In this document: one piece after another, positions 8,471 to 64,000 of the stretch
Layout of the letters: each line of letters opens with the position of its first letter
Position numbering within the stretch: the first letter of the stretch is position 1
Assembly: GCF_002304225.1 (NCBI RefSeq)
Contig: NZ_NSLB01000001.1
Location: 310,001 to 374,000, forward strand
Length of the DNA: 64,000 nucleotides
Reading direction: 5' to 3'
Source of the DNA: Pseudomonas sp. HAR-UPW-AIA-41
GTDB lineage: Bacteria > Pseudomonadota > Gammaproteobacteria > Pseudomonadales > Pseudomonadaceae
Translations under genes and position numbers: made by a program
The notes under the pieces: model-generated
What the model was told of the DNA's origin: nothing
Databases searched by the model: none
The model's input: the letters and a program-made list of their open reading frames with translations, nothing else

Positions 8471-9482
8471 AGCATTACCTTTTGTTGTTGTTAGAAACGC
8501 TATGCCCCGGGAGTGATTCGATCTTTGCCATGGCGCGGGTTGTGGCGTGCCGGTATTGGGCGTGATCTGGGGCTTTGGCGTTTTTATACAGAGCGGGCAG
8601 GCACCGCAGAACTAGTTAAAAATGAAGGTGCCGTTCGGTTTTGCCGAATGCTGTTTGGGGGTATTGGATGGGGGCATGCGCCGGTGCTGGTTGTTGAGCT
8701 GGCTGAGGCATGGGTCTGCCCCGTTGGCTATTTCATGTGCCTCTGCTGATTTTCGAGTTGGCTGAGGCATGGGTTCCGCGCTGCTGGGCGGGTTTCTTTT
8801 GGTATTGCACCAAGAGGAACCGAAAGGGCTTGGTTCTGGGTTTGCTGCGTGCCGCTGCTGATTATCGAGTTGGCTGAGGCATTGGTTCCGCCCTGCTGGG
8901 CGGGTTCCTTTTGGCATTGCCCCAAAAGGAACCAAAGGTCTAGCCCCACCATCCGGCCCTCCGCTGCGCTCCGGGTTCGTTCGCTCCATCATTGCTCCGA
9001 GGGTCGGCTTACAAGGGCCGTCCATGGCCCTTTAAGCCTTTCGCCGCATCCATGCGGCTCACCCCTCTACGCAACGATTCCGCTCACCCTCCTGAAGGGG
9101 CGTTTGGTGCCGCCTGAAGGTTCAGAGTGTGAATCCCTCTCCCGCTGGCGGGAGAGGGGGAGAAAAGCAAACGAACCTCAACAACCAAACCAACCGAACC
9201 ATCAAGCAACTCGGAGCCCGAGTCCCCGTCAGGAGGCCGAGTGGAGGTGTTGCGCAGGGGGACGAGCGGCCTGGATGGCCGCGAGAGGCATAACGGGCCA
9301 AGGATGGCCCGTGTATGCCGGCCCCCGGAGCGGCACCGGAGGGAGGGAAGTCGCGCGCAGCGCGACCCGGATGTCGGGGTGCCTTTCTCTTTGGTTACTT
9401 TCTCTTGGGCACGCAAGAGAAAGTAAATCGCCGTAAGGGCGAAATCGGAGGCTTTTTATGAGTGAGGCTCCTTTTATTTTGC
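8471..9482. repeat. 1-kb non-coding block of direct repeats and hairpins
   Basis: No convincing gene was seen. A core GTTGGCTGAGGCATGGGTTC-like sequence occurs at about 8691, 8749 and 8861; the last two copies are 112 bp apart and continue into CTGCTGGGCGGGTT. Three strong hairpins follow: a 12-bp stem at 8903-8914/8922-8933 (GGTTCCTTTTGG), an 11-bp stem with 2-nt loop at 9135-9145/9148-9158 (CCCTCTCCCGC), and a 13-bp stem at 9395-9407/9414-9426 (TTACTTTCTCTTG). These resemble dispersed intergenic repeats of pseudomonads. The region separates the porin gene from the acquired AIPR gene. Confidence 0.75.
8482..8492 (-). promoter_or_regulatory. Crc/Hfq-type catabolite-repression motif upstream of the TorF-type porin gene
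   Basis: On the minus strand the leader reads AACAACAACAA directly before AAAGG and about 12 nt before the start codon. This contains AAnAAnAA, the A-rich motif bound by Hfq-Crc in Pseudomonas translational repression. The match is exact, but function is inferred from position. Confidence 0.55.
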
Positions 9483-11195
9483 TTATGTAAAGTAAGTTTT
9501 TGAAAACTGATCTGCGAAACTGTCTGTTCGGATGTAGTCTCGAATTTGCTCTCTGTTCTTTGCAGGTGATTCTGCGATCATATCTTCGATGTGTTTTGAT
9601 ACTTTTTCTGTAAGTGTGATGAATTTTTCTGGATTTAATATTGTGGTAAGTGCTTCTTTGCAAAATTTTTTTTGGCTTTTGGGTGGGGCGCTTAATATTG
9701 TTGGTTGCTGCCAGAGGGATCGTGAAATTGCGAATAGTGCGTAGAATTTGTAGATAGATTTTGCTCTATCTATCTTTGATGTTCTTACTAAATAGTCGAA
9801 TTTGTAAAGTGCTAGTGCTGCGGTGTGGTAAAGTTCTACGCTATGATTTGCCAGGAAGATTTTGTCTGAAAACTCTTTCCTGATACCGCGGTGATCACGA
9901 GCTGCTCTGTGTGGTTGATGAAAAAACATTGCAGCAGCAACTTTCATTAGGTCGGATGGGCGCATTACTCTAGTGCGCTCTGCGGTTACATCCCTGTACT
10001 GGTTTTCCCGTCTTTCAATTAGGATCTTTGCATCGCCATCTTGCGAAGCACAATATATTTCAAGATCCTTCATGAAGGGTAGTAACGCCCAGAATTGATC
10101 GTCCCTGACCTCGTTCTGTTTATTGGTGCCAATGATGATACTGGCGACAAATTCCGCATCGGAACTGCCTATGATGCGAAACGGAACCATCACTGAGTTT
10201 GCTTTTTCTTTGGTGCTTGCAAGGATATTTGTTGTTTGGCAGCCGTTTACTATTTGGAAATCGCTTATGGTGAAAGAGTCTCCCTTCCTTGAGACCTCTT
10301 TGGCAACTACAGTTATCCCATTGTTTTTAAATACGAATGATGAATGGTCGCCAGATTGTAGTTCGGTAATTATAGACTTGTTGATGTCTGATTCTGGATT
10401 GAAATCACGGACGTTATCGTAGAATACGGACCTTATGATGTGTTGCTCGCCGTTGCTGTCGGGGTCGCTTAGTGCGATTTCAAGTATTTGGTCAGCAGAA
10501 ATATATCCGATGTATGCTTCGTCAACTTTTTCGTGTGGCGGCATTGTTATGGCTTTAGGGAAGCTTATGGTTGCCGTTCTTGAGTTTGTTGCTGATCTGA
10601 ATCCGGACTGAATATCTTTCGCTCCAAGGATTTCTATTGCAACTGCTGAGAAAATATTTAACTCTTCGATTCTTTTTTTGTTGCTTTCAATTAGCGTCTT
10701 TATTGGTTGCGATATTTGGCCTGAGCCGGTAGTGCAGTAATAACATCTGAGCTCTGGGTTTGATCGGGTTGCGGATTCAAATACTAGATCTTTGGCTGCT
10801 GCAAGATCGTCAATTTGAGCACCATTGAGTAGTTTAAGTTCTGTGAAGAAGTCGTAAGTTGCATCAAGGAACTTTGCTATGTCGCCATAGTCAAGACTTT
10901 CTGATGTTTTTGACTGAAAAAAGTGAAAGGCAGTACTGTGGTTTTTTCCTGATGATAATGCCGATGAGGCTTCGTCTGCGTCTGTGCAGACTGCGCCTTG
11001 CACTAATATGGCAATTCCATCGACGCCAAATTCGCTGCCGCTTAGATGAATTTTGAATGGATCTATATTTTCTCCTAGAACTCCATTTTCAACTGAGAAT
11101 ATTGACATTACTTCAAAGGCTTCGGCTTCATCGTTATACATTCCTGGGTTGGAGTGCATGAACTCTTTTAGTTGTGCTTTGATGATTGGATTCAT
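9483..11195 (-). CDS. AIPR-family (abortive infection phage resistance) protein
   Basis: The product is 570 aa. The central block matches AIPR (PF10592): YIGYISADQILEIAL, NVRDFNPESDINKSI, SFVFKNNGITVVAKEV and FQIVNGCQTTNILAST. Members occur as single-gene or restriction-linked phage-defence proteins, though their mechanism is poorly known. The gene is AT-rich (long A/T runs, NNA/NNT codons), unlike its GC-rich neighbours, so recent acquisition is likely. There is no clear Shine-Dalgarno before the ATG at 11195, and the nrd terminator lies only 32 bp upstream, so its promoter is obscure. No methylase or nuclease partner is adjacent. Confidence 0.85.
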   Translation of the reverse strand: MNPIIKAQLKEFMHSNPGMYNDEAEAFEVMSIFSVENGVLGENIDPFKIHLSGSEFGVDGIAILVQGAVCTDADEASSALSSGKNHSTAFHFFQSKTSESLDYGDIAKFLDATYDFFTELKLLNGAQIDDLAAAKDLVFESATRSNPELRCYYCTTGSGQISQPIKTLIESNKKRIEELNIFSAVAIEILGAKDIQSGFRSATNSRTATISFPKAITMPPHEKVDEAYIGYISADQILEIALSDPDSNGEQHIIRSVFYDNVRDFNPESDINKSIITELQSGDHSSFVFKNNGITVVAKEVSRKGDSFTISDFQIVNGCQTTNILASTKEKANSVMVPFRIIGSSDAEFVASIIIGTNKQNEVRDDQFWALLPFMKDLEIYCASQDGDAKILIERRENQYRDVTAERTRVMRPSDLMKVAAAMFFHQPHRAARDHRGIRKEFSDKIFLANHSVELYHTAALALYKFDYLVRTSKIDRAKSIYKFYALFAISRSLWQQPTILSAPPKSQKKFCKEALTTILNPEKFITLTEKVSKHIEDMIAESPAKNREQIRDYIRTDSFADQFSKTYFT

Positions 11196-57515: not shown

Positions 57516-57545
57516 GAGGAGTCGGAGAAGGGGGGGGGGCTTTCT

Positions 57546-57630
57546 GAAGATTAAGCTAACGGGCGGTCAAAAGCGTAGCTTTTGGAAACCCTGCCAGCGA
57601 AGTGAGCGGCAATTGAACGCACAGTAAGAG
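57546..57630 (-). repeat. attC of cassette 12, degenerate distal end
   Basis: It matches the common 89-bp type (GATTAAGCTAACGGGCGG, AAAAGCGTAGCTTTT) but both core sites are damaged: GTAAGAG stands for GTTAGAG, and the outer AAC is lost (GAAGATTAAG). It marks the distal end of the array. Confidence 0.8.
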
Positions 57631-57636
57631 GTGCTC

Positions 57637-57981
57637 CTACGGTGCCTGAATGTGCTTAATCCAGAATGGTGCGGTGTAGCCAAGAATCACACCTACGATG
57701 ACGGCTAGAGCATAGCCTTCTGGACCAGCATGAATATAAAGAGCAACTAAAAGACAGCCTATGACAGAGCAACATACCTGCCACGTAATGGGGTATTTAA
57801 AGGCCTTAGGCTCAATGTAAGGAGCTGCAATAGAACCAAGAGTGGCACCGAATGCTGCAAACCCAGCAACGCTTTGTAGCGTGAAGCCATGACTCAGCCC
57901 ACCGAAAATGGCGAAGACAACTGCACAGGCTGCGGCCACTAAAAGGGCAATAGCGAAAGCAGGGCGAGTACTCCGAGCCAT
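57637..57981 (-). CDS. Cassette 12: small membrane protein
   Basis: The product is 114 aa, with four predicted membrane helices (IALLVAAACAVVFAIFGG, VAGFAAFGATLGSIAA, VCCSVIGCLLVALYIHA, ALAVIVGVILGYTAPFW). It has no domain I recognise. It is the last cassette, bounded by the divergent 64-bp attC and the degenerate distal attC, so it is probably immobile. Function unknown. Confidence 0.75.
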   Translation of the reverse strand: MARSTRPAFAIALLVAAACAVVFAIFGGLSHGFTLQSVAGFAAFGATLGSIAAPYIEPKAFKYPITWQVCCSVIGCLLVALYIHAGPEGYALAVIVGVILGYTAPFWIKHIQAP

Positions 57982-57987
57982 TGAAAC

Positions 57988-58051
57988 CTCTAACTTTTGA
58001 GCTAAGGCCGCGGCCCGTCAGGGCCGTCGCGCCTGCAGCGAATTGTTGGGC
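57988..58051 (-). repeat. attC of cassette 11
   Basis: A short 64-bp site with cores CTCTAAC and GTTGGGC and a compact stem (GGCCGCGGCCCGTCAGGGCC). It is unrelated to the other types in the array, so this cassette came from elsewhere. Confidence 0.82.
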
Positions 58052-58054
58052 ACC

Positions 58055-58591
58055 TTACTTGCCTGATTTGCACTCTCCAGACGCATAAAATCGAAGATCA
58101 TTCTCTGGCCCTTCCTCCAAGAAGCGAACCACCTTGCTAATTGGCAAGGTCATGGCTCCTGTTGTCGACGCCAACACGAACTGCGTTCCAAACGAATAAG
58201 GGATTAGATTTCTAAGGCTCGGCTTCTGCGTTTTCATGTACTCCTCGTAAGGAAGCCACACGTAAGGCGTTTTTGCGCAACGCTTTATGACTTCACCAAC
58301 ATAGGCACCAGACCAAATTATTGTTTCGGCAGCCTCCTCTGAGTCGGCATGAACCCCATGCTTTCGCAGAACTGAAAGCCATGCGCTAACTATATCTAGA
58401 CTGTCAAGTGAGTAGTTGAGCCGATTTCGATCTAGCTTTTCAGGGAACAAAACATCAGTTTCTCCGCGAAGGCTTCCAGAAAAGAATTCGGCCACCTCCG
58501 CTATTTGAGAATCGAGTTCATTGGAAGATGACATTGCGACTCCAGGAGACAGAAACATCAACACGGAGAAAATTGCCTTCATTAAATTCAC
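58055..58591 (-). CDS. Cassette 11: exported protein of unknown function
   Basis: The product is 178 aa if started at the GTG at 58591, which follows AAGGAGG by 6 nt; the ATG three codons on is the alternative. A signal peptide (MKAIFSVLMFLSPGVAMSSS) is present. The mature chain has EVAEFFSGSLRGETDV, RLNYSLDSLDIVSAWLSVLRKHG and VIKRCAKTPYVWLPYEEYM. No domain was identified; two cysteines could pair. Confidence 0.75.
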   Translation of the reverse strand: MNLMKAIFSVLMFLSPGVAMSSSNELDSQIAEVAEFFSGSLRGETDVLFPEKLDRNRLNYSLDSLDIVSAWLSVLRKHGVHADSEEAAETIIWSGAYVGEVIKRCAKTPYVWLPYEEYMKTQKPSLRNLIPYSFGTQFVLASTTGAMTLPISKVVRFLEEGPENDLRFYASGECKSGK

Positions 58592-58609
58592 GCACAACCT
58601 CCTTAAGGT

Positions 58610-58691
58610 GCCCAACGATTAAGCTAAGCTCAGGGGCCGGCTTTAGCCTGTCCCAGTGAGCGAAGCGAACGATTTGAGCGCATTGTTAGGT
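58610..58691 (-). repeat. attC of cassette 10
   Basis: 82 bp, with cores GCCCAAC and GTTAGGT. The central stem reads AGGGGCCGGCTTTAGCCTGT, a variant of the GGCCGGCTTTAGCC type. Confidence 0.88.
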
Positions 58692-58702
58692 GCGATCGCG
58701 AT

Positions 58703-59038
58703 TTAATACTTGACTGATAATTCAATATTGTTACTTTCAAAATTGAACTCCACTGTGCAACTTGACCAGGGATTTTCGGCTGTGCAGTAGTTGTTATGGA
58801 TAAAAAATTTTCTTAGCTCAACAAAAAGATCGAGTAATTCCGAGTCTGCGCTGGCAGTTGCAGGGATGAACCAGTCTTTTACTCCGGAGTTGTCGATATA
58901 GTCATAAGATATTTTAGCGTGATCATTATTTACGGATAATTCTGCTGTGCAGACTGTTTGGGTTGAATTGCTGGGTGTAATTTCTTTTAAGATAACTGCA
59001 ATTCTATTGTAGATATCGTTTTCGGATGTATTGCTCAT
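58703..59038 (-). CDS. Cassette 10: YezG/DUF600-like putative immunity protein
   Basis: The product is 111 aa. The layout resembles DUF600/YezG immunity proteins: an N-terminal helix (ENDIYNRIAVILKEITPS), a strand with an acidic-aromatic pattern (AKISYDYIDNSGVKDWF), a helix LLDLFVELRKFFI, then NPWSSCTVEFNFESNNIELSVKY. Such proteins neutralise LXG or other polymorphic toxins. No toxin gene is present, so it would be an orphan immunity gene. Low-GC codon use contrasts with the chromosome. Similarity is by eye only. Confidence 0.65.
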   Translation of the reverse strand: MSNTSENDIYNRIAVILKEITPSNSTQTVCTAELSVNNDHAKISYDYIDNSGVKDWFIPATASADSELLDLFVELRKFFIHNNYCTAENPWSSCTVEFNFESNNIELSVKY

Positions 59039-59047
59039 CTGTAAGAC

Positions 59048-59143
59048 ACCTAACGTGGAAGTGAGGGGCAGCCGGAGCGCGTAGCGCGGAGGGAGCCAAC
59101 AAGCGCAGCTTGTTGGCTGTCCCGCTCGACTGCAGGGTTAGGT
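59048..59143 (-). repeat. attC of cassette 9
   Basis: The longest site, 96 bp, with cores ACCTAAC and GTTAGGT. The central hairpin is CAACAAGCGCAGCTTGTTG. The GCGCGTAGCGCG stem and flank differ from all other sites. Confidence 0.85.
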
Positions 59144-59150
59144 GACTCGT

Positions 59151-59462
59151 TCAACCTGGCAGGTTTTTTTCTTCCCATAGTTCAATTGCATCCAGTATGG
59201 CTTCTTCGTATTTGGATTGACTATTTCGGCTCTTGTACTCGGAAGTACTGGCCCTAGCGATTGGTGCCGAATAATTTATGGCTTCGGCTAGTTCATTAAG
59301 GTAAGACCTGCCGCTTTCTTTGAATCTTCGCGTTTCTTCTTCTGAAAGAAGCAGAGTGAAGTCATAGCCAACAAAGCTATGCTCACAGCTAACGTTGAGA
59401 ATGAGTTGTTCATTCTCTGTAAGCAGACACCAAAACTTTGGCTCACAATCGATAACGTGCAT
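59151..59462 (-). CDS. Cassette 9: small acidic protein of unknown function
   Basis: The product is 103 aa from the ATG at 59462 (MHVIDCEPKFWCLL); the ORF is open two codons further to a GTG within the attC core, which is less likely. It is rich in Glu and hydrophilic, with no membrane segment. FRYDFTLL-like VGYDFTLLLSEEETRRFKESG and YEEAILDAIELWEEKNLPG suggest a small alpha/beta fold. No family recognised. No clear ribosome-binding site, so translation may be inefficient. Confidence 0.65.
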   Translation of the reverse strand: MHVIDCEPKFWCLLTENEQLILNVSCEHSFVGYDFTLLLSEEETRRFKESGRSYLNELAEAINYSAPIARASTSEYKSRNSQSKYEEAILDAIELWEEKNLPG

Positions 59463-59466
59463 AGTC

Positions 59467-59542
59467 ACCTAACGTTTGGTTAAGGGGCGGGCTTTAGCCC
59501 GTCCCAGTGAGCGAAGCGAACGATTTAAACCAGTTGTTAGGC
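59467..59542 (-). repeat. attC of cassette 8
   Basis: 76 bp, with cores ACCTAAC and GTTAGGC; GTTTGGTTAAGGGGCGGGC then TTTAGCCCGTCCC forms the central stem. Belongs to the shorter type shared with the attC sites of cassettes 6 and 7. Confidence 0.9.
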
Positions 59543-59545
59543 GAC

Positions 59546-60085
59546 TTAGAATTTAAATTCGCCTTCAAAAACCTGATGATTATCGAGCGCGACGCTACAC
59601 TTCCTTGCAGTCTCTACTGGGTATACCTTGCCTAGCATAGGTGCTAAATATTTATAAAATACTTGGTCGCAATTGGTGTCTTTTTTGAAGGGCAATGAGT
59701 TGCCGGCTGTGTCTGTTTGTATATTGCAGCCCGATACAAGCTCTGCGGGTAAAGAGTTAACTTTTATTAAATTTTTAGTAGATGCGTCTTTAATTTCTAC
59801 GACGCTATCGCAGGATCCATTAACTACTCCATCCTGTGTTTTCTTTTCAAAAGCTACTCTTGTGTAGTCAGTACCTATAAATACTGGTTGCTCGTTCACT
59901 GTTACTAAATATTTTGAGGGTTTGAACATTATTTTTTTGATGCAGAAACTTGTGTTGACTGCTTTATTGTTGATGGTGGCTTGACCTGACTTGCAACCAG
60001 GAATTGCGCCTGTAAATTCCGATTTTTGTGTGCTCATGCATCCTGAGATAGATACGAAGCAGATGATTGCGATAAGCTTTTTCAT
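59546..60085 (-). CDS. Cassette 8: lipoprotein of unknown function
   Basis: The product is 179 aa from ATG 60085 preceded by AAGGAAGG; upstream codons in frame cover the attC and are rejected. The signal MKKLIAIICFVSISGC has a lipobox ending in Cys16. The mature chain has five to six cysteines (IPGCKSG, SFCIKK, GSCDSV, SGCNIQ, TNCDQV, RKCSVAL), probably disulfide-bonded, and Lys/Asn-rich composition typical of low-GC cassettes. No known domain. Confidence 0.8.
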   Translation of the reverse strand: MKKLIAIICFVSISGCMSTQKSEFTGAIPGCKSGQATINNKAVNTSFCIKKIMFKPSKYLVTVNEQPVFIGTDYTRVAFEKKTQDGVVNGSCDSVVEIKDASTKNLIKVNSLPAELVSGCNIQTDTAGNSLPFKKDTNCDQVFYKYLAPMLGKVYPVETARKCSVALDNHQVFEGEFKF

Positions 60086-60118
60086 AACCTTCCTTGATTG
60101 TGGATTTAACAGAGTGTT

Positions 60119-60196
60119 GCCTAACGTTTGGTTAAGGGGCGGGCTGTAGCCCGTCCCGAGTGAGCGGAGCGAACGACCTTGAACCACTAGTTAGGT
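60119..60196 (-). repeat. attC of cassette 7
   Basis: 78 bp, with cores GCCTAAC and GTTAGGT; nearly identical to the cassette 8 site in its arms and in the GGGGCGGGCTGTAGCCCGTCCC stem. Confidence 0.9.
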
Positions 60197-60198
60197 GA

Positions 60199-60513
60199 TT
60201 ATTGCGAGTGATAAGTCTCCAGCACCTCGCCAGTTGTAGCGCATACCTCGCTTTCAGGCGTACCGCCAAGCATCTCTGGTAGGAGAGTTCCATGAACATG
60301 CCAAATATTATTGGTTTTTTCTGCCGCAAATGGCTCGAAGCCTGCCAGGTATTCGGGTTCGTATATTTTTAGCATCGCGCTTTTGGCAATTTTAATGGCG
60401 TGTATAGATGATGTTACAGCCATGGCTTGGCTGGCCTGAGTTTCAGGACATGTGCTGTCTGCATTTGCAGCTCCGACTATGAAGGGAATAAGGAGCAGCG
60501 CTGATTTAGACAT
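60199..60513 (-). CDS. Cassette 7: NTF2-fold immunity-like exported protein
   Basis: The product is 104 aa, with a signal peptide (MSKSALLLIPFIVGAANA). The rest fits the NTF2-fold immunity pattern: HAIKIAKSAMLKIYEPEYLAGFEPFAAEK, then NIWHVHGTLLPEMLGGTPESEVCATTGEVLETYHSQ, as in PF15631-type proteins. These protect against cognate toxins; here it stands alone in a cassette. A periplasmic site would suit protection against an incoming toxin acting there. Confidence 0.75.
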   Translation of the reverse strand: MSKSALLLIPFIVGAANADSTCPETQASQAMAVTSSIHAIKIAKSAMLKIYEPEYLAGFEPFAAEKTNNIWHVHGTLLPEMLGGTPESEVCATTGEVLETYHSQ

Positions 60514-60517
60514 AATT

Positions 60518-60606
60518 ACCTAACGATTAAGCTAACGGGCGAGCAAAAGCGTAGCTTTTGCGAGTCCAGCGAACGAAGTGAGCGATAGTTGAGCGCATTG
60601 TTATGT
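60518..60606 (-). repeat. attC of cassette 6
   Basis: 89 bp, with cores ACCTAAC and GTTATGT; central hairpin GCAAAAGCGTAGCTTTTGC. One of four near-identical 89-bp sites. Confidence 0.92.
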
Positions 60607-60615
60607 AGCAACACA

Positions 60616-61110
60616 CTATTGCCATGATGCCCAAAGACTAGCGGCTTGATCATGAGTGGATACTCCTCGATAGAGGGCGTCGAAGAGCGGTTCTGATTGT
60701 TCCGGGCTTAGTATTGAGCCTGAAACTACGGGAGCTGCCGGCCCCAAGAGCTTGAATGTTCCAGTGGCGAATGGCTGGAAGGGTTGAATATATGTAATTG
60801 GTTCACTCATTCCCTCTGCCCACGCCTCAACAACAAGTACATCAATCTTGCCTGTGCTTGTGCTTATTTGGCCTTCTCGTGCCAAGGCCCAGGCTGAAGC
60901 CGTAGGCTGTTGCTCCGATACAAATGCTTTTCCAGCGTCTATTGCTTGTTCTTGAGTTTCAGCTTCGAAGCGAGTGAGTTTTCGACCTGCTTCAGTCTCA
61001 ACTATGGCTAATGGCACTAGAAGATCACCTTCGGGAAGGTCAGAGACACTCCAGGCTGCGTGAGCAAGAACGAACCCGGCGAGTAAACTTGCTGTTTCAG
61101 GTATGGCCAC
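60616..61110 (-). CDS. Cassette 6: protein of unknown function
   Basis: The product is 164 aa, moderately acidic, with repeated helical segments. It reads LAHAAWSVSDLPEGDLLVPLAIVETEAGRKLTRFEAETQEQAIDAGK, resembling a domain with two beta-hairpins and a helix, then DVLVVEAWAEGMSEPITYIQPFQPF. I recognise no family. No signal peptide. GC content is nearer to that of the chromosome than for cassettes 8-10. Confidence 0.7.
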   Translation of the reverse strand: MAIPETASLLAGFVLAHAAWSVSDLPEGDLLVPLAIVETEAGRKLTRFEAETQEQAIDAGKAFVSEQQPTASAWALAREGQISTSTGKIDVLVVEAWAEGMSEPITYIQPFQPFATGTFKLLGPAAPVVSGSILSPEQSEPLFDALYRGVSTHDQAASLWASWQ

Positions 61111-61124
61111 GATCTATCCTTGAT

Positions 61125-61201
61125 ACATAACAATTGGTTAAGGGGCCGGCTTTAGCCGGTCCCGAGTGAGCGAAGCGAACGACTTGAACCAGTTGTTAGA
61201 G
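61125..61201 (-). repeat. attC of cassette 5
   Basis: 77 bp, with cores ACATAAC and GTTAGAG; TTGGTTAAGGGGCCGGCTTTAGCC marks it as related to the sites of cassettes 7 and 8. Confidence 0.9.
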
Positions 61202-61206
61202 GGCGC

Positions 61207-61626
61207 TCACTCCAAGGGCTCTGAGCACTGGGTCGACTCACCTGGGTATAAAACGAGTACGGGTTCTTTTTGAAACTCGTCGCTACCCGTGTAGTAGGTT
61301 TGAAGTGTCGCATATCCACTCTTGCTAACGCACCAGTTCCAAAAGAAAACCTCTACGCCATGCAGCATAAGAGGCATTTCAATTCGCCACTCATTGATTT
61401 TTGCAAACTCAGCTTCTCCGACAGAATTTGTGCGCCGAATGACACGGAATCTTTCTGAGCCGTATGGATAAGAGCTGATTATTAGCTCTACTTTGGCATC
61501 ATCAATTGGTTCGCCGGCGCGGTCTGTTACTTTTGCGGTAGTGCTCGGCTGAAGTGTTTTGTATGTTGGGAAAGGAACGCATCCAGATATTAGTGTCAGG
61601 ATTAATGTGCCAAGTAGGAGCCTCAT
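61207..61626 (-). CDS. Cassette 5: lipoprotein with carboxypeptidase-regulatory-like fold
   Basis: The product is 139 aa from ATG 61626. The ribosome-binding AGAGGG lies in the recombination core itself. The signal MRLLLGTLILTLISGC is a lipoprotein signal. The mature chain, TAKVTDRAGEPIDDAKVELIISSYP, resembles CarboxypepD-type beta-sandwich domains. The stop is close to the attC. Function unknown. Confidence 0.78.
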   Translation of the reverse strand: MRLLLGTLILTLISGCVPFPTYKTLQPSTTAKVTDRAGEPIDDAKVELIISSYPYGSERFRVIRRTNSVGEAEFAKINEWRIEMPLMLHGVEVFFWNWCVSKSGYATLQTYYTGSDEFQKEPVLVLYPGESTQCSEPLE

Positions 61627-61634
61627 GAGTAGCC

Positions 61635-61723
61635 CTCTAACGATTAAGCTAACGGGCGAACAAAAGCGTAGCTTTTGGACGTCCAGCGAACGAAGTGAGC
61701 GATAGTTGAGCGCATTGTTAGGC
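61635..61723 (-). repeat. attC of cassette 4
   Basis: 89 bp, with cores CTCTAAC and GTTAGGC; CAAAAGCGTAGCTTTTG central hairpin. The core also supplies the stop codon of the cassette 4 ORF. Confidence 0.92.
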
Positions 61724-62020
61724 GCGATACCACTCACTGCTTTTGTATTTTTCAGGTATTTCTTGCTCAAACGGGTCGTCATATCCGAGCTTTTCTAGCT
61801 CATCGAACCATTGGTCACGTTTTGATTCAGGTAGCCTTGAACCGCACCAAGGGCAAAAATGGATCGTGATTGAAGACGTACCGCCGTCATGAATAATTAT
61901 TCCGTACTCATTGAATTTATCAGAGTACTTGATTAGGTGGTCTGGGCATTCAAATGCATCAGCATGAAGATCACACCTGTGATTTGCCTGGCCTCTCATT
62001 TGCTCGCAGCAGTGATTCAT
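61718..62020 (-). CDS. Cassette 4: DUF6980-like zinc-ribbon protein
   Basis: The product is 100 aa. It has MNHCCEQM, FECPDHLIKYSDKFNEYGIIIHDGG, FCPWCGSRLPESKRDQWFDELEKLGYDDP. The paired cysteines (C4/C5 and FCPWC) and the CPWCG knuckle suggest zinc binding. I recall this layout from DUF6980, common in integron cassettes and plasmids; that assignment is from memory. The stop codon TAA overlaps the attC core. Function unknown. Confidence 0.75.
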   Translation of the reverse strand: MNHCCEQMRGQANHRCDLHADAFECPDHLIKYSDKFNEYGIIIHDGGTSSITIHFCPWCGSRLPESKRDQWFDELEKLGYDDPFEQEIPEKYKSSEWYRA

Positions 62021-62025
62021 GTAGT

Positions 62026-62114
62026 GCCTAACGATTAAGCTAACGGGCGGCCAAAAGCGTAGCTTTTGGACGTCCAGCGAACGGAGTGAGCGGCAGTTGA
62101 GCGCATTGTTAGGG
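62026..62114 (-). repeat. attC of cassette 3
   Basis: 89 bp, with cores GCCTAAC and GTTAGGG; CAAAAGCGTAGCTTTTG stem. Confidence 0.92.
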
Positions 62115-62117
62115 GAT

Positions 62118-62411
62118 TCACCCTAGTAGCCCTGCTATTAGGAAGCCCAGTATCGCGGGGGTAATGAATATATTAAATAATGTTATGCAAAGGCAGTAGA
62201 GGTGGAAGTTTTCTTTGCTCTCGACTGGGAGATGGAAAATTGCAAGCTGGAAAATAATGAGATAGGTGGAGATTATTAAAAATATTGCGCCACCTGCTAG
62301 GCTTGCTGACCAAGAGTTTGATAGTGCTGCCAGTGCAAAGATAATTAGTATTGGGGAAAGGGTGTACGGAAGATACCCTTTCTTGAATTTGTAGGCTGCT
62401 GGAGATTCCAT
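62118..62411 (-). CDS. Cassette 3: small membrane protein
   Basis: The product is 97 aa from ATG 62411, with the ribosome-binding AGGGGA supplied by the adjacent attC core. It has three predicted membrane helices (LSPILIIFALAALSN, LAGGAIFLIISTYLIIFQLAIF, LYCLCITLFNIFITPAILGFLIAG). No known family. Codons upstream that stay in frame run through attC and are discarded. Confidence 0.7.
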   Translation of the reverse strand: MESPAAYKFKKGYLPYTLSPILIIFALAALSNSWSASLAGGAIFLIISTYLIIFQLAIFHLPVESKENFHLYCLCITLFNIFITPAILGFLIAGLLG

Positions 62412-62416
62412 TTTTC

Positions 62417-62505
62417 CCCTAACGATTAAGCTAACGGGCGGCCAAAAGCGCAGCTTTTGGACGTCCAGCGAACGGAGTGAGCGGCAGTTGAGCGCATTGT
62501 TATGT
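62417..62505 (-). repeat. attC of cassette 2
   Basis: 89 bp, with cores CCCTAAC and GTTATGT; the central stem reads CAAAAGCGCAGCTTTTG, one base different from its neighbours. It overlaps the last codons of the cassette 2 ORF. Confidence 0.92.
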
Positions 62506-62826
62506 TGCAGCCTTGCAGGCATTTTCAACCTCAGTATTGAAGTTGACCGCGCTTGCAATGTGCTGCCGAACATCTGCACCCATTATTGGGTCAGGATCAA
62601 GCCACGATAGCTTGGCTAGCTTGATGAGCTGGTCAGCGCTAGGTGTTCGGTGTAGCCACCAATGGAACGCCCCACATCTTTCATGCTCTGAACCGGCTTC
62701 GTTGCCAGGTTTATAGCCGCTGAGCTGGATTTTAAATAGCTCATCAGGATACATGCCAAAGGTTTCCCATTCGGCAGGGAAGTTGAGTATGTGTAGTAAC
62801 TCGCTTTTGGTCATCGGCTGATACAT
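62500..62826 (-). CDS. Cassette 2: protein of unknown function
   Basis: The product is 108 aa. Its ATG lies in the GTTATGT core that joins it to the first cassette; a second ATG four codons later (MTKSELLHIL) is possible. The text LLHILNFPAEWETFGMYPDELFKIQLSGYKPGNEAGSEHERCGAFHWWLHRTP is distinctive but I cannot place it. The last codons overlap its own attC. Confidence 0.7.
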   Translation of the reverse strand: MYQPMTKSELLHILNFPAEWETFGMYPDELFKIQLSGYKPGNEAGSEHERCGAFHWWLHRTPSADQLIKLAKLSWLDPDPIMGADVRQHIASAVNFNTEVENACKAAT

Positions 62827-62899
62827 AACGATTAAGCTAAGGGGCCGGCTTTAGCCGGTCCCAGCGAACGGAGTGAGCGCTTTGAGCGCATTGTTAGAA
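62823..62899 (-). repeat. attC of cassette 1
   Basis: 77 bp, with cores ACATAAC and GTTAGAA; GGGGCCGGCTTTAGCCGGTCCC stem, close to the cassette 10 type. Confidence 0.92.
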
Positions 62900-62906
62900 G
62901 GCAGCT

Positions 62907-63119
62907 TCATAGTAGATAACCGCTCTTTATCCATGAAGCAACCACGACCTTGACCGTTTCAACAACTGTGTCCCAGTTATTTGGATTGAGGCCGTGTGAT
63001 TCAATACCGTTAAGTGCGGCGACTGCTAAGCGCTGAGCACGTTCTTCGGGCACATGAAAGTGTCGCTGAATTAGCGCGGTAGTTTTGTGCTCGATTTCTG
63101 GCGTGTAGTACGCAGCCAT
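62907..63119 (-). CDS. Cassette 1: small protein, attI-proximal
   Basis: The product is 70 aa. It reads EIEHKTTALIQRHFHVPEERAQRLAVAALNGIESHGLNPNNWDTVVETVKVVVASWIKSG: an amphipathic all-helical protein with no signal peptide. It is the newest or most strongly expressed cassette by position. Its ATG is 6 bp from the recombination core. No family recognised. Confidence 0.72.
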   Translation of the reverse strand: MAAYYTPEIEHKTTALIQRHFHVPEERAQRLAVAALNGIESHGLNPNNWDTVVETVKVVVASWIKSGYLL

Positions 63120-63261
63120 GGTGCCTTCTAACTATAAGTAGACACCAAATGGTGTGTTTAAACGCACCATTTGGTGGATAACGTTCCTTGTCGTCACTGG
63201 CTTTCCCTGTCTAGTCTGAGCTGTGCAGCGCATCGTGCGCATTAAGGGAGCGGTATACACC
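63120..63261. promoter_or_regulatory. attI region with intI promoter and a long near-palindrome
   Basis: The recombination core TTCTAAC (63126-63132) matches the end of cassette 1. Beside it is a perfect 12-bp inverted repeat, CACCAAATGGTG (63143-63154) and CACCATTTGGTG (63165-63176), around a loop containing GTTTAAAC. A possible intI promoter is TTGTCG (63188-63193) and TAGTCT (63212-63217). No convincing LexA box was seen. Confidence 0.75.
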
Positions 63262-64000
63262 ATGGACGGCAAGCCTAAGCTGCTGGATCAACTGCGTGAG
63301 CAGATCCGGGTTCGACACTATTCGATTCGCACAGAACATGTCTACGCCAAGTGGGTGCGGGACTTTATCCGCTTTCACGGTTTGCGCCACCCTGCCGAAT
63401 TAGGGGCGGTGGAAGTTGAGCAGTTTCTTTCGTATCTGGCCGTGCAGCAGAATGTCTCGGCTTCCACTCAGAATCAGGCGCTGTCTGCGCTGCTGTTTTT
63501 GTACAAGCATGTGCTGCATATCGATTTGCCCTGGCTGGACGATATCGTTCGTGCCAAGCGACCGGCCCGGTTGCCTGTTGTGTTATCCAGAGAGGAGACA
63601 CAGCAGGTTCTGGAGCATTTTGAGGGGCAGATGGCATTGGTCACGGGGCTGTTGTACGGGGCCGGCTTAAGGCTGATGGAAGCCTTGCGGTTGCGGGTCA
63701 AGGATGTGGATTTCGCGTTGCGTGAAATTCTGGTGCGCGATGGCAAGGGGATGAAGGATCGGGTCACGGTGCTGCCTCAGTCTCTGGTGCTTCCCCTCCA
63801 GCAGCATTTGCTGTGGGTGAGGGCTCAGCATGAGCTGGACCTTCAGTCTGGTTTCGGCTCTGTCTATCTGCCGTTTGCCTTGGCGCGCAAATACCCTGGC
63901 GCGGCGCGTGAGTGGGGTTGGCAGTATGTGTTTCCTGCCTCGGGCATTAGCCGTGATACGCGTTCGGATGAGCGCCGTCGTCACCATCTGGATGAGAAGC
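63262..64000 (+). CDS. intI: Integron integrase IntI (N-terminal 246 residues, cut by window edge)
   Basis: Tyrosine recombinase of the IntI family; the reading frame remains open at the window end, so about 75 residues and the catalytic Tyr lie outside. It has the N-terminal core-binding domain (LLDQLREQIRVRHYSIRTEHVYAKWV), the first catalytic Arg near residue 137 in LLYGAGLRLMEALRLRVKD and the Lys of DGKGMKD. The IntI-specific segment is present (YPGAAREWGWQYVFPASG...SDERRRHHLDEK). It recombines cassettes at attI and attC. Confidence 0.96.
   Translation, partial: MDGKPKLLDQLREQIRVRHYSIRTEHVYAKWVRDFIRFHGLRHPAELGAVEVEQFLSYLAVQQNVSASTQNQALSALLFLYKHVLHIDLPWLDDIVRAKRPARLPVVLSREETQQVLEHFEGQMALVTGLLYGAGLRLMEALRLRVKDVDFALREILVRDGKGMKDRVTVLPQSLVLPLQQHLLWVRAQHELDLQSGFGSVYLPFALARKYPGAAREWGWQYVFPASGISRDTRSDERRRHHLDEK

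Follow-up and report, generated by a model that had tools for sequence, protein, structure and literature searches.

A complete chromosomal integron in Pseudomonas sp. HAR-UPW-AIA-41 and attI platforms without an integrase gene that may form a distributed integron system in the Pseudomonadaceae

Integrons are described as one integrase gene (intI) with one adjoining attI site, and arrays of attC sites without an integrase as probable debris. Chromosomal integrons of pseudomonads were reportedly described in P. stutzeri and P. alcaligenes by Vaisvila in 2001 and by Holmes in 2003. The integron analysed here is located in a stretch of 64,000 nucleotides of Pseudomonas sp. HAR-UPW-AIA-41 (contig NZ_NSLB01000001.1, positions 310,001 to 374,000), hereafter the window. 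It resembles the pseudomonad chromosomal integrons in an intI that faces away from the array, an attI and tandem cassettes, and in attC sites belonging to repeat families of 76-79 nt and 89 nt, which among the matches listed occur in many relatives. Unlike in the described pseudomonad integrons, the same genome holds a second array which is headed by attI and lacks intI, and attI appears to be extended to the intI start codon. We give about even chances to the reading that these features represent distributed integrons in the Pseudomonadaceae, in which one intI drives many live attI platforms without intI at conserved loci, a clade-specific word in attI serves as address tag and intI is self-controlled instead of being controlled by LexA. 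It is likely that the window integrase also works in trans on the second array of its own genome.

Taken alone, the window integron is ordinary in kind. It is a complete chromosomal integron with intact intI, attI and twelve cassettes, its corrected coordinates being 57543 to 64227, and these components, which the initial annotation had read from the letters of the window, were confirmed by profile match, core matches and attC anatomy. The intI frame (321 aa from ATG) extends uninterrupted beyond the window, without internal stops, and the encoded protein matches TIGR02249 with 478.8 bits (cut-off 265) and the structure 2a3v at 5.8e-86. The catalytic tyrosine, which the annotation had to expect beyond the window, is present (Y303), as are R137, H268, R271 and H294; these five residues we take to be the catalytic residues of IntI. 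According to a profile search of the source genome TIGR02249 is matched above cut-off on contig C11 only, indicating a single intI. All twelve cassettes are oriented away from intI, and the GC content drops from about 0.65 outside to 0.40-0.53 across the cassette array.

The array comprises twelve attC sites, all on the + strand (bottom strand), spanning 57543 to 62899. As had been annotated, the first seven nucleotides of cassettes 1-11 are identical to the core of their own attC, with matching runs of 7-13 nt. The match amounts to 11 nt for cassette 1 at its junction with the attI adjoining intI, indicating that the first cassette was inserted there, and to 2 nt only for cassette 12, which is degenerate together with its attC. 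Two covariance models were made from attC sites of other genomes only, since a MAFFT alignment of the window sites, tried as model basis, misaligned their arms and was rejected. They found s1-s8, s10 and s12, each with an E value of at most 5e-12 by the better model, and no match at E 10 or less in the window outside the array. Recognition of all twelve annotated sites by such models was thus borne out for ten; s9 and s11 reached only E 0.86 and 1.3 and therefore rest on core match and anatomy. At eight of the twelve sites the L-box is matched at six of six positions with one extrahelical base, compared to 0.65 matches per shuffle of the 5.7-kb array, and the same test, which is a loose one, also matched seven times on the + strand beyond the array and seven times on the - strand of the whole window. 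An Rfam search at gathering scores detected no attC in the window.

Applied to the whole source genome, the same covariance models detected 36 attC sites, comprising the twelve of the window, 23 on contig C22 and one on contig C55. The 23 sites (C22:42445-54402) share a single orientation, and neither the TIGR02249 search nor a reading of the locus revealed an integrase at this array. It is headed by an orphan attI, i.e. one without adjoining intI, at C22:42141-42202, which lies next to the first attC and is identical to the window attI at 60 of 63 nt; its palindrome is intact except for one deleted base, and a short remnant of the beginning of intI lies beside it. Furthermore, cassette 1 of the window recurs as cassette 10 of the C22 array (310 bp at 99.0%), with two differences within the 303-bp cassette and with ends that coincide with recombination cores. 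Two related cassettes of 76 and 77 aa, alike by eye, were noticed within the C22 array (L234:5093-5320 and 9836-10066), while the lone attC at C55:48240-48315 (L235:8240-8315) is located in a short GC-poor patch. Having two or more attC sites and no intI, the C22 array falls under the definition of a cluster of attC sites lacking an integron integrase (CALIN), as worded in the accessible parts of PMC9024848 and PMC12444791. It differs from a remnant without platform parts, which is the usual reading of CALINs and not their formal definition, in that attI is retained with its repeats.

In the window lineage attI would comprise about 140 bp and reach the intI start codon, so that the intI promoter would lie inside the recombination site. 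Its crossover core was located at 63125-63132, and its last word, GTATACACC (63253-63261), a variant of the commoner GTTATACACC, abuts the ATG of intI and overlaps the translation start region. The attI1 of class 1 integrons likewise has accessory repeats next to its crossover that bind the integrase (DR1 and DR2, as described in the accessible part of PMC8946536). Unlike attI1, the site described here has at least four words, which are partly palindromic, the last of them at the intI start codon, and their type changes between IntI clades. A cassette promoter (Pc) within attI is not claimed, since a promoter scan returned nine promoter-like sites with 7.2 expected; the Pc of P. stutzeri Q is placed inside intI in the accessible part of a review (PMC8876359).

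A search of 398 genomes of the family with the attI pattern AACTATNANTAGACACCANNTGGTG, allowing up to two mismatches, gave 150 matches in 83 genomes, and the reversed pattern as control gave none in the 398. While 38 of the 150 sites lie within 600 bp of an integrase match in the right orientation and are thus intI-linked, 112, spread over 73 genomes, have no adjoining intI. Forty of these orphan sites, falling into 23 flank clusters, were read individually (32 of the 35 in the own genus and eight others). One or more attC sites follow on the cassette side, on the expected strand, in 36 of them, including a weak case (L249) and one cut by the contig end (L252); one full attC match was found on the opposite side. 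The CGAC-type pattern, which covers one subtype only, was matched 15 times in nine of the 398 genomes, seven of these sites (in six genomes) having no intI alongside. Two orphan attI sites with unrelated flanks (L237 and L241) share a 156-nt module at 89.7% which ends about 25 nt beyond the last word; judging from this module the orphan attI itself may be copied.

The orphan sites were compared with 39 of the 40 intI-linked CACC-type regions. The window site, with GTATACACC, misses the exact last-word pattern. The intI promoter was detected at three of 40 orphan and 34 of 39 linked sites and the Shine-Dalgarno sequence at nine of 32 and 31 of 32, whereas the second attI word was found at 36 of 40 and 36 of 39 and the last word at 32 of 40 and 31 of 39, respectively. 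Counting one locus per flank cluster, the last word was present in 16 of 23 and the promoter in three of 23, and all three promoter-bearing clusters come from the five loci that retain an intI remnant. When 24 orphan and 39 linked sites were profiled column by column, the same pattern emerged, yet the promoter TCTA stays conserved. Since the last word is kept at orphan sites that have mostly lost promoter and Shine-Dalgarno sequence, it is most likely part of attI as judged by this conservation.

From 114 loci with intI, 99 distinct upstream regions were obtained, 70 of which were kept (at least 60% identity to the window IntI and sufficient length). In these 70 regions the 4-mer preceding the intI start codon shows a 4.8-fold enrichment in the own attI (5-mer 9.9-fold), which exceeds that at all 27 other offsets. 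The words fall into the types CACC (40 regions), CGAC (28) and CGTC (2). On an IntI tree of 67 of the 70 integrases and four of another lineage the word type changes three times, which is the minimum possible, compared to a mean of 26.4 after shuffling; the support of the CGAC clade is only 91/61. One member of the CGTC pair retains CACC at the start codon and is thus an intermediate. A LexA box within one mismatch was found upstream of intI in one of 71 regions of the window lineage, with about 2.7 expected by shuffling, compared to 27 of 27 upstream regions of integrases with less than 60% identity, partly in the same genomes. By this measure, LexA control of intI is absent from the window integrase lineage. 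In other genera (L088-L154) a CCTAA core-like word lies near the intI start at 25 of 60 usable loci out of 65, with 4.5 expected. The extension of this word does not follow attI in these genera (22 compared to 26.2 permuted), and the word switch is therefore claimed for the Pseudomonadaceae only.

The lack of a LexA box, the position of the word at the start codon, where it overlaps the translation start region, and the joint change of the 4-mer with attI among the CACC, CGAC and CGTC types would also be expected of an operator for autorepression of the integrase that is not part of attI. This explanation is doubtful, if still the best of the alternatives, given that the word is kept at 32 of 40 sites where there is nothing to repress. 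An operator function alone was dropped for the same reason, the word being retained by orphan sites without intI. The functions as operator and as part of attI are compatible with each other.

The cassettes behind the orphan sites provide a further line of evidence. In 26 of 35 orphan sites the first recognised cassette fits the junction at seven of seven nucleotides, compared to a permuted mean of 4.9; this test covered all but one of the 36 attC-bearing sites, the exception being cut by the contig end, and took the nearest recognised attC as the first. When orthologous orphan sites were compared in 64 pairs, only three pairs shared 150 nt or more within the first 1.5 kb on the cassette side, and 61 differed. 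The sister genomes G154 and G506 share no stretch within this 1.5 kb and one further out at 74.5%, whereas their opposite flank is 99.4% identical over 2350 bp. Both the cassette differences and the junction fits agree with insertions made by an integrase at sites without intI.

Alternatively, the window could represent an ordinary integron accompanied by a dead remnant, the orphan arrays being degraded integrons (CALINs) in which attI persists by inertia. This is in line with the intI remnants detected by tblastn beside five of the 40 orphan sites and with a few more that show some intI start codons by eye, with the decaying cores of the C22 array and with the lack of an integron integrase match at E 1e-60 in 31 of the 73 orphan-bearing genomes. 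We nevertheless consider it rather unlikely, because most orphan sites have lost promoter and ribosome-binding site but retain words located a few bases from them, and because the cassettes differ between orthologous sites without intI.

The 31 genomes without integrase weigh likewise against a distributed system, and so do several other observations. Four further orphan-bearing genomes (G566, G008, G064 and G501) contain only an integrase fragment or an integrase of another lineage. Since the integrase is lacking, service in trans is not possible at present in many of the orphan genomes, unless integrases come and go. CACC-type orphans occur in at least five genomes with a CGAC-type integrase (G612, G266, G561, G526 and G028). 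In the source genome, only 15 of the 23 cassettes of the C22 array show an exact core match and its first junction fits at five of seven nucleotides; the array therefore looks older and may be idle, and the shared cassette could represent two separate uptakes from outside. Finally, homologous exchange of whole arrays can contribute to cassette change: L250 and L256, which belong to different species, are 99.9% identical over 1.5 kb of cassettes and 94.9% in the flank, a pattern that probably reflects the recent transfer of a whole array without intI.

It is improbable that the words bind a host regulator rather than IntI: as 12-bp palindromes at a distance of 22 bp they are reminiscent of repressor operators, but the word type follows the IntI tree with the few changes and the clade support given above, CACC and CGAC types coexist in one host genus (g36), and attC families are shared between the two main word types among the matches listed.

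Taken together, the retained words and the changing cassettes suggest that the attI platforms are maintained and used in trans. In such a distributed integron the IntI encoded at one locus would insert and excise cassettes wherever the cell has an attI with the word of this IntI. Bound integrase might furthermore shut off its own gene and thereby replace the absent LexA control.

The features of the window integron are listed in Table 1.

Table 1. Positions of the integron features in the window (for intI also the end beyond it) with the evidence for each
Feature	Position	Strand	Evidence or remark
intI, integron integrase	63262..64000 in window, end 64227	+	TIGR02249, 2a3v
extended attI (predicted)	63125..63261	+	crossover core, palindrome, promoter, last word
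attI palindrome CACCAAATGGTG-N10-CACCATTTGGTG	63143..63176	.	34 bp, four CACC/GGTG words
predicted intI promoter (TTGTCG, TAGTCT)	63188..63217	+	frequent at intI-linked sites, lost from most orphan attI sites
cassette 1 gene, 70 aa, cassette also present in C22 array	62907..63119	-	open reading frame (ORF)
attC s1 (of cassette 1)	62823..62899	+	anatomy, covariance model
cassette 2 gene, 108 aa, no family	62500..62826	-	ORF, profile search
attC s2	62417..62505	+	anatomy, covariance model
cassette 3 gene, 97 aa, probable membrane protein (by eye)	62118..62411	-	ORF
attC s3	62026..62114	+	anatomy, covariance model
cassette 4 gene, DUF6980	61718..62020	-	PF22400 1.6e-53
attC s4	61635..61723	+	anatomy, covariance model
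cassette 5 gene, 139 aa, lipoprotein-like (by eye)	61207..61626	-	ORF
attC s5	61125..61201	+	anatomy, covariance model
cassette 6 gene, 164 aa, no family	60616..61110	-	ORF, profile search
attC s6	60518..60606	+	anatomy, covariance model
cassette 7 gene, NTF2-fold immunity-like (Imm-NTF2-2)	60199..60513	-	PF15631 1.7e-9
attC s7	60119..60196	+	anatomy, covariance model
cassette 8 gene, 179 aa, lipoprotein-like (by eye)	59546..60085	-	ORF
attC s8	59467..59542	+	anatomy, covariance model
cassette 9 gene, 105 aa	59151..59468	-	ORF
attC s9, other attC family	59048..59143	+	L-box with extrahelical G; covariance E 0.86
cassette 10 gene, weakly YezG-like/TIGR01741	58703..59038	-	below both cut-offs
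attC s10	58610..58691	+	anatomy, covariance model
cassette 11 gene, 175 aa	58055..58582	-	ORF
attC s11, other attC family	57988..58051	+	13-nt core match; covariance E 1.3
cassette 12 gene, 114 aa, membrane protein-like (by eye)	57637..57981	-	sub-cut-off MFS_1
attC s12, both cores degenerate, array end	57543..57630	+	covariance model 3e-14

The initial annotation had described a pseudomonad chromosomal integron with uncharacterised cassettes, correctly so: a family match that merits a name was obtained for three of the twelve proteins. The nine proteins other than those of cassettes 4, 7 and 10 gave no or only sub-cut-off matches in Pfam and NCBIfam, and PHROGs, searched with ten of the twelve, returned a weak match for cassette 4 only. 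In agreement with the annotated lack of a resistance gene, no resistance family was named by the Pfam and NCBIfam matches above cut-off. Among the immunity-like proteins that had been proposed, that of cassette 7 fits and that of cassette 10 does so weakly. A relative with 70% identity to cassette 7 lies in the integron of G166 (locus L047), and cassette 7 is the only window cassette with a relative in 118 other integron loci.

The phage-defence cassettes supposed for the window array were not recovered by PADLOC, which matched none of its twelve proteins. In the C22 array three of the ten proteins tested (from ten of the 23 cassettes) were matched, namely an FRG protein to PDC-S15 at 3e-99, a protein to PD-Lambda-3_A at 2e-7 and an ankyrin protein at 4e-13, and one protein of the array carries a Mrr-type nuclease domain. 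By these matches a putative role in phage defence is supported for the C22 array and not for the window array. The end of the C22 array (L234:12745-15680) holds defence-like cassettes: PD-Lambda-3_A-like, Mrr-type nuclease, S21-like protein and FRG/PDC-S15.

The integron is located on a 906-kb contig and is followed on its right flank by genes for an AraC regulator, CaiB, SprT and TtcA. This right flank is syntenic in four of the six relatives read (L167, L168, L171 and L172), whereas the left flank is not; its genes are absent from the 19 kb around AraC in all six. The integron is thus located at a break in synteny. Elsewhere in the window, at 9259-9325, the Rfam search matched a TwoAYGGAY RNA (46 bits, cut-off 43).

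With respect to known systems, the window integron is probably one part of a split system, in which the attI platforms without intI are new as a variant. The accessible part of PMC12444791 regards mobilisation of CALINs in trans as possible and, for Xanthomonas, reports CALINs at conserved loci. The Shewanella prophage M16-3 (PMC9892861, as far as accessible) is a single prophage case, and the survey and the tests of maintenance and turnover were added by the present analysis. No paper on maintained attI platforms without intI was found in the literature searched, subscription papers excepted, which is weak evidence. According to the accessible text of PMC9024848, IntegronFinder 2 recognises attI of class 1 only, and attI-bearing arrays without intI would therefore be filed as plain CALINs.

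If the platforms without intI are kept up and receive cassettes in trans, pseudomonads would have a greater capture capacity than current software counts, and phage-defence cassettes would sit where nobody looks for an integron. Furthermore, for integrons without LexA control the 'additional adaptations' to an unregulated integrase are said to remain to be identified (PMC3108266, accessible part). The word array would be a concrete candidate for these adaptations.

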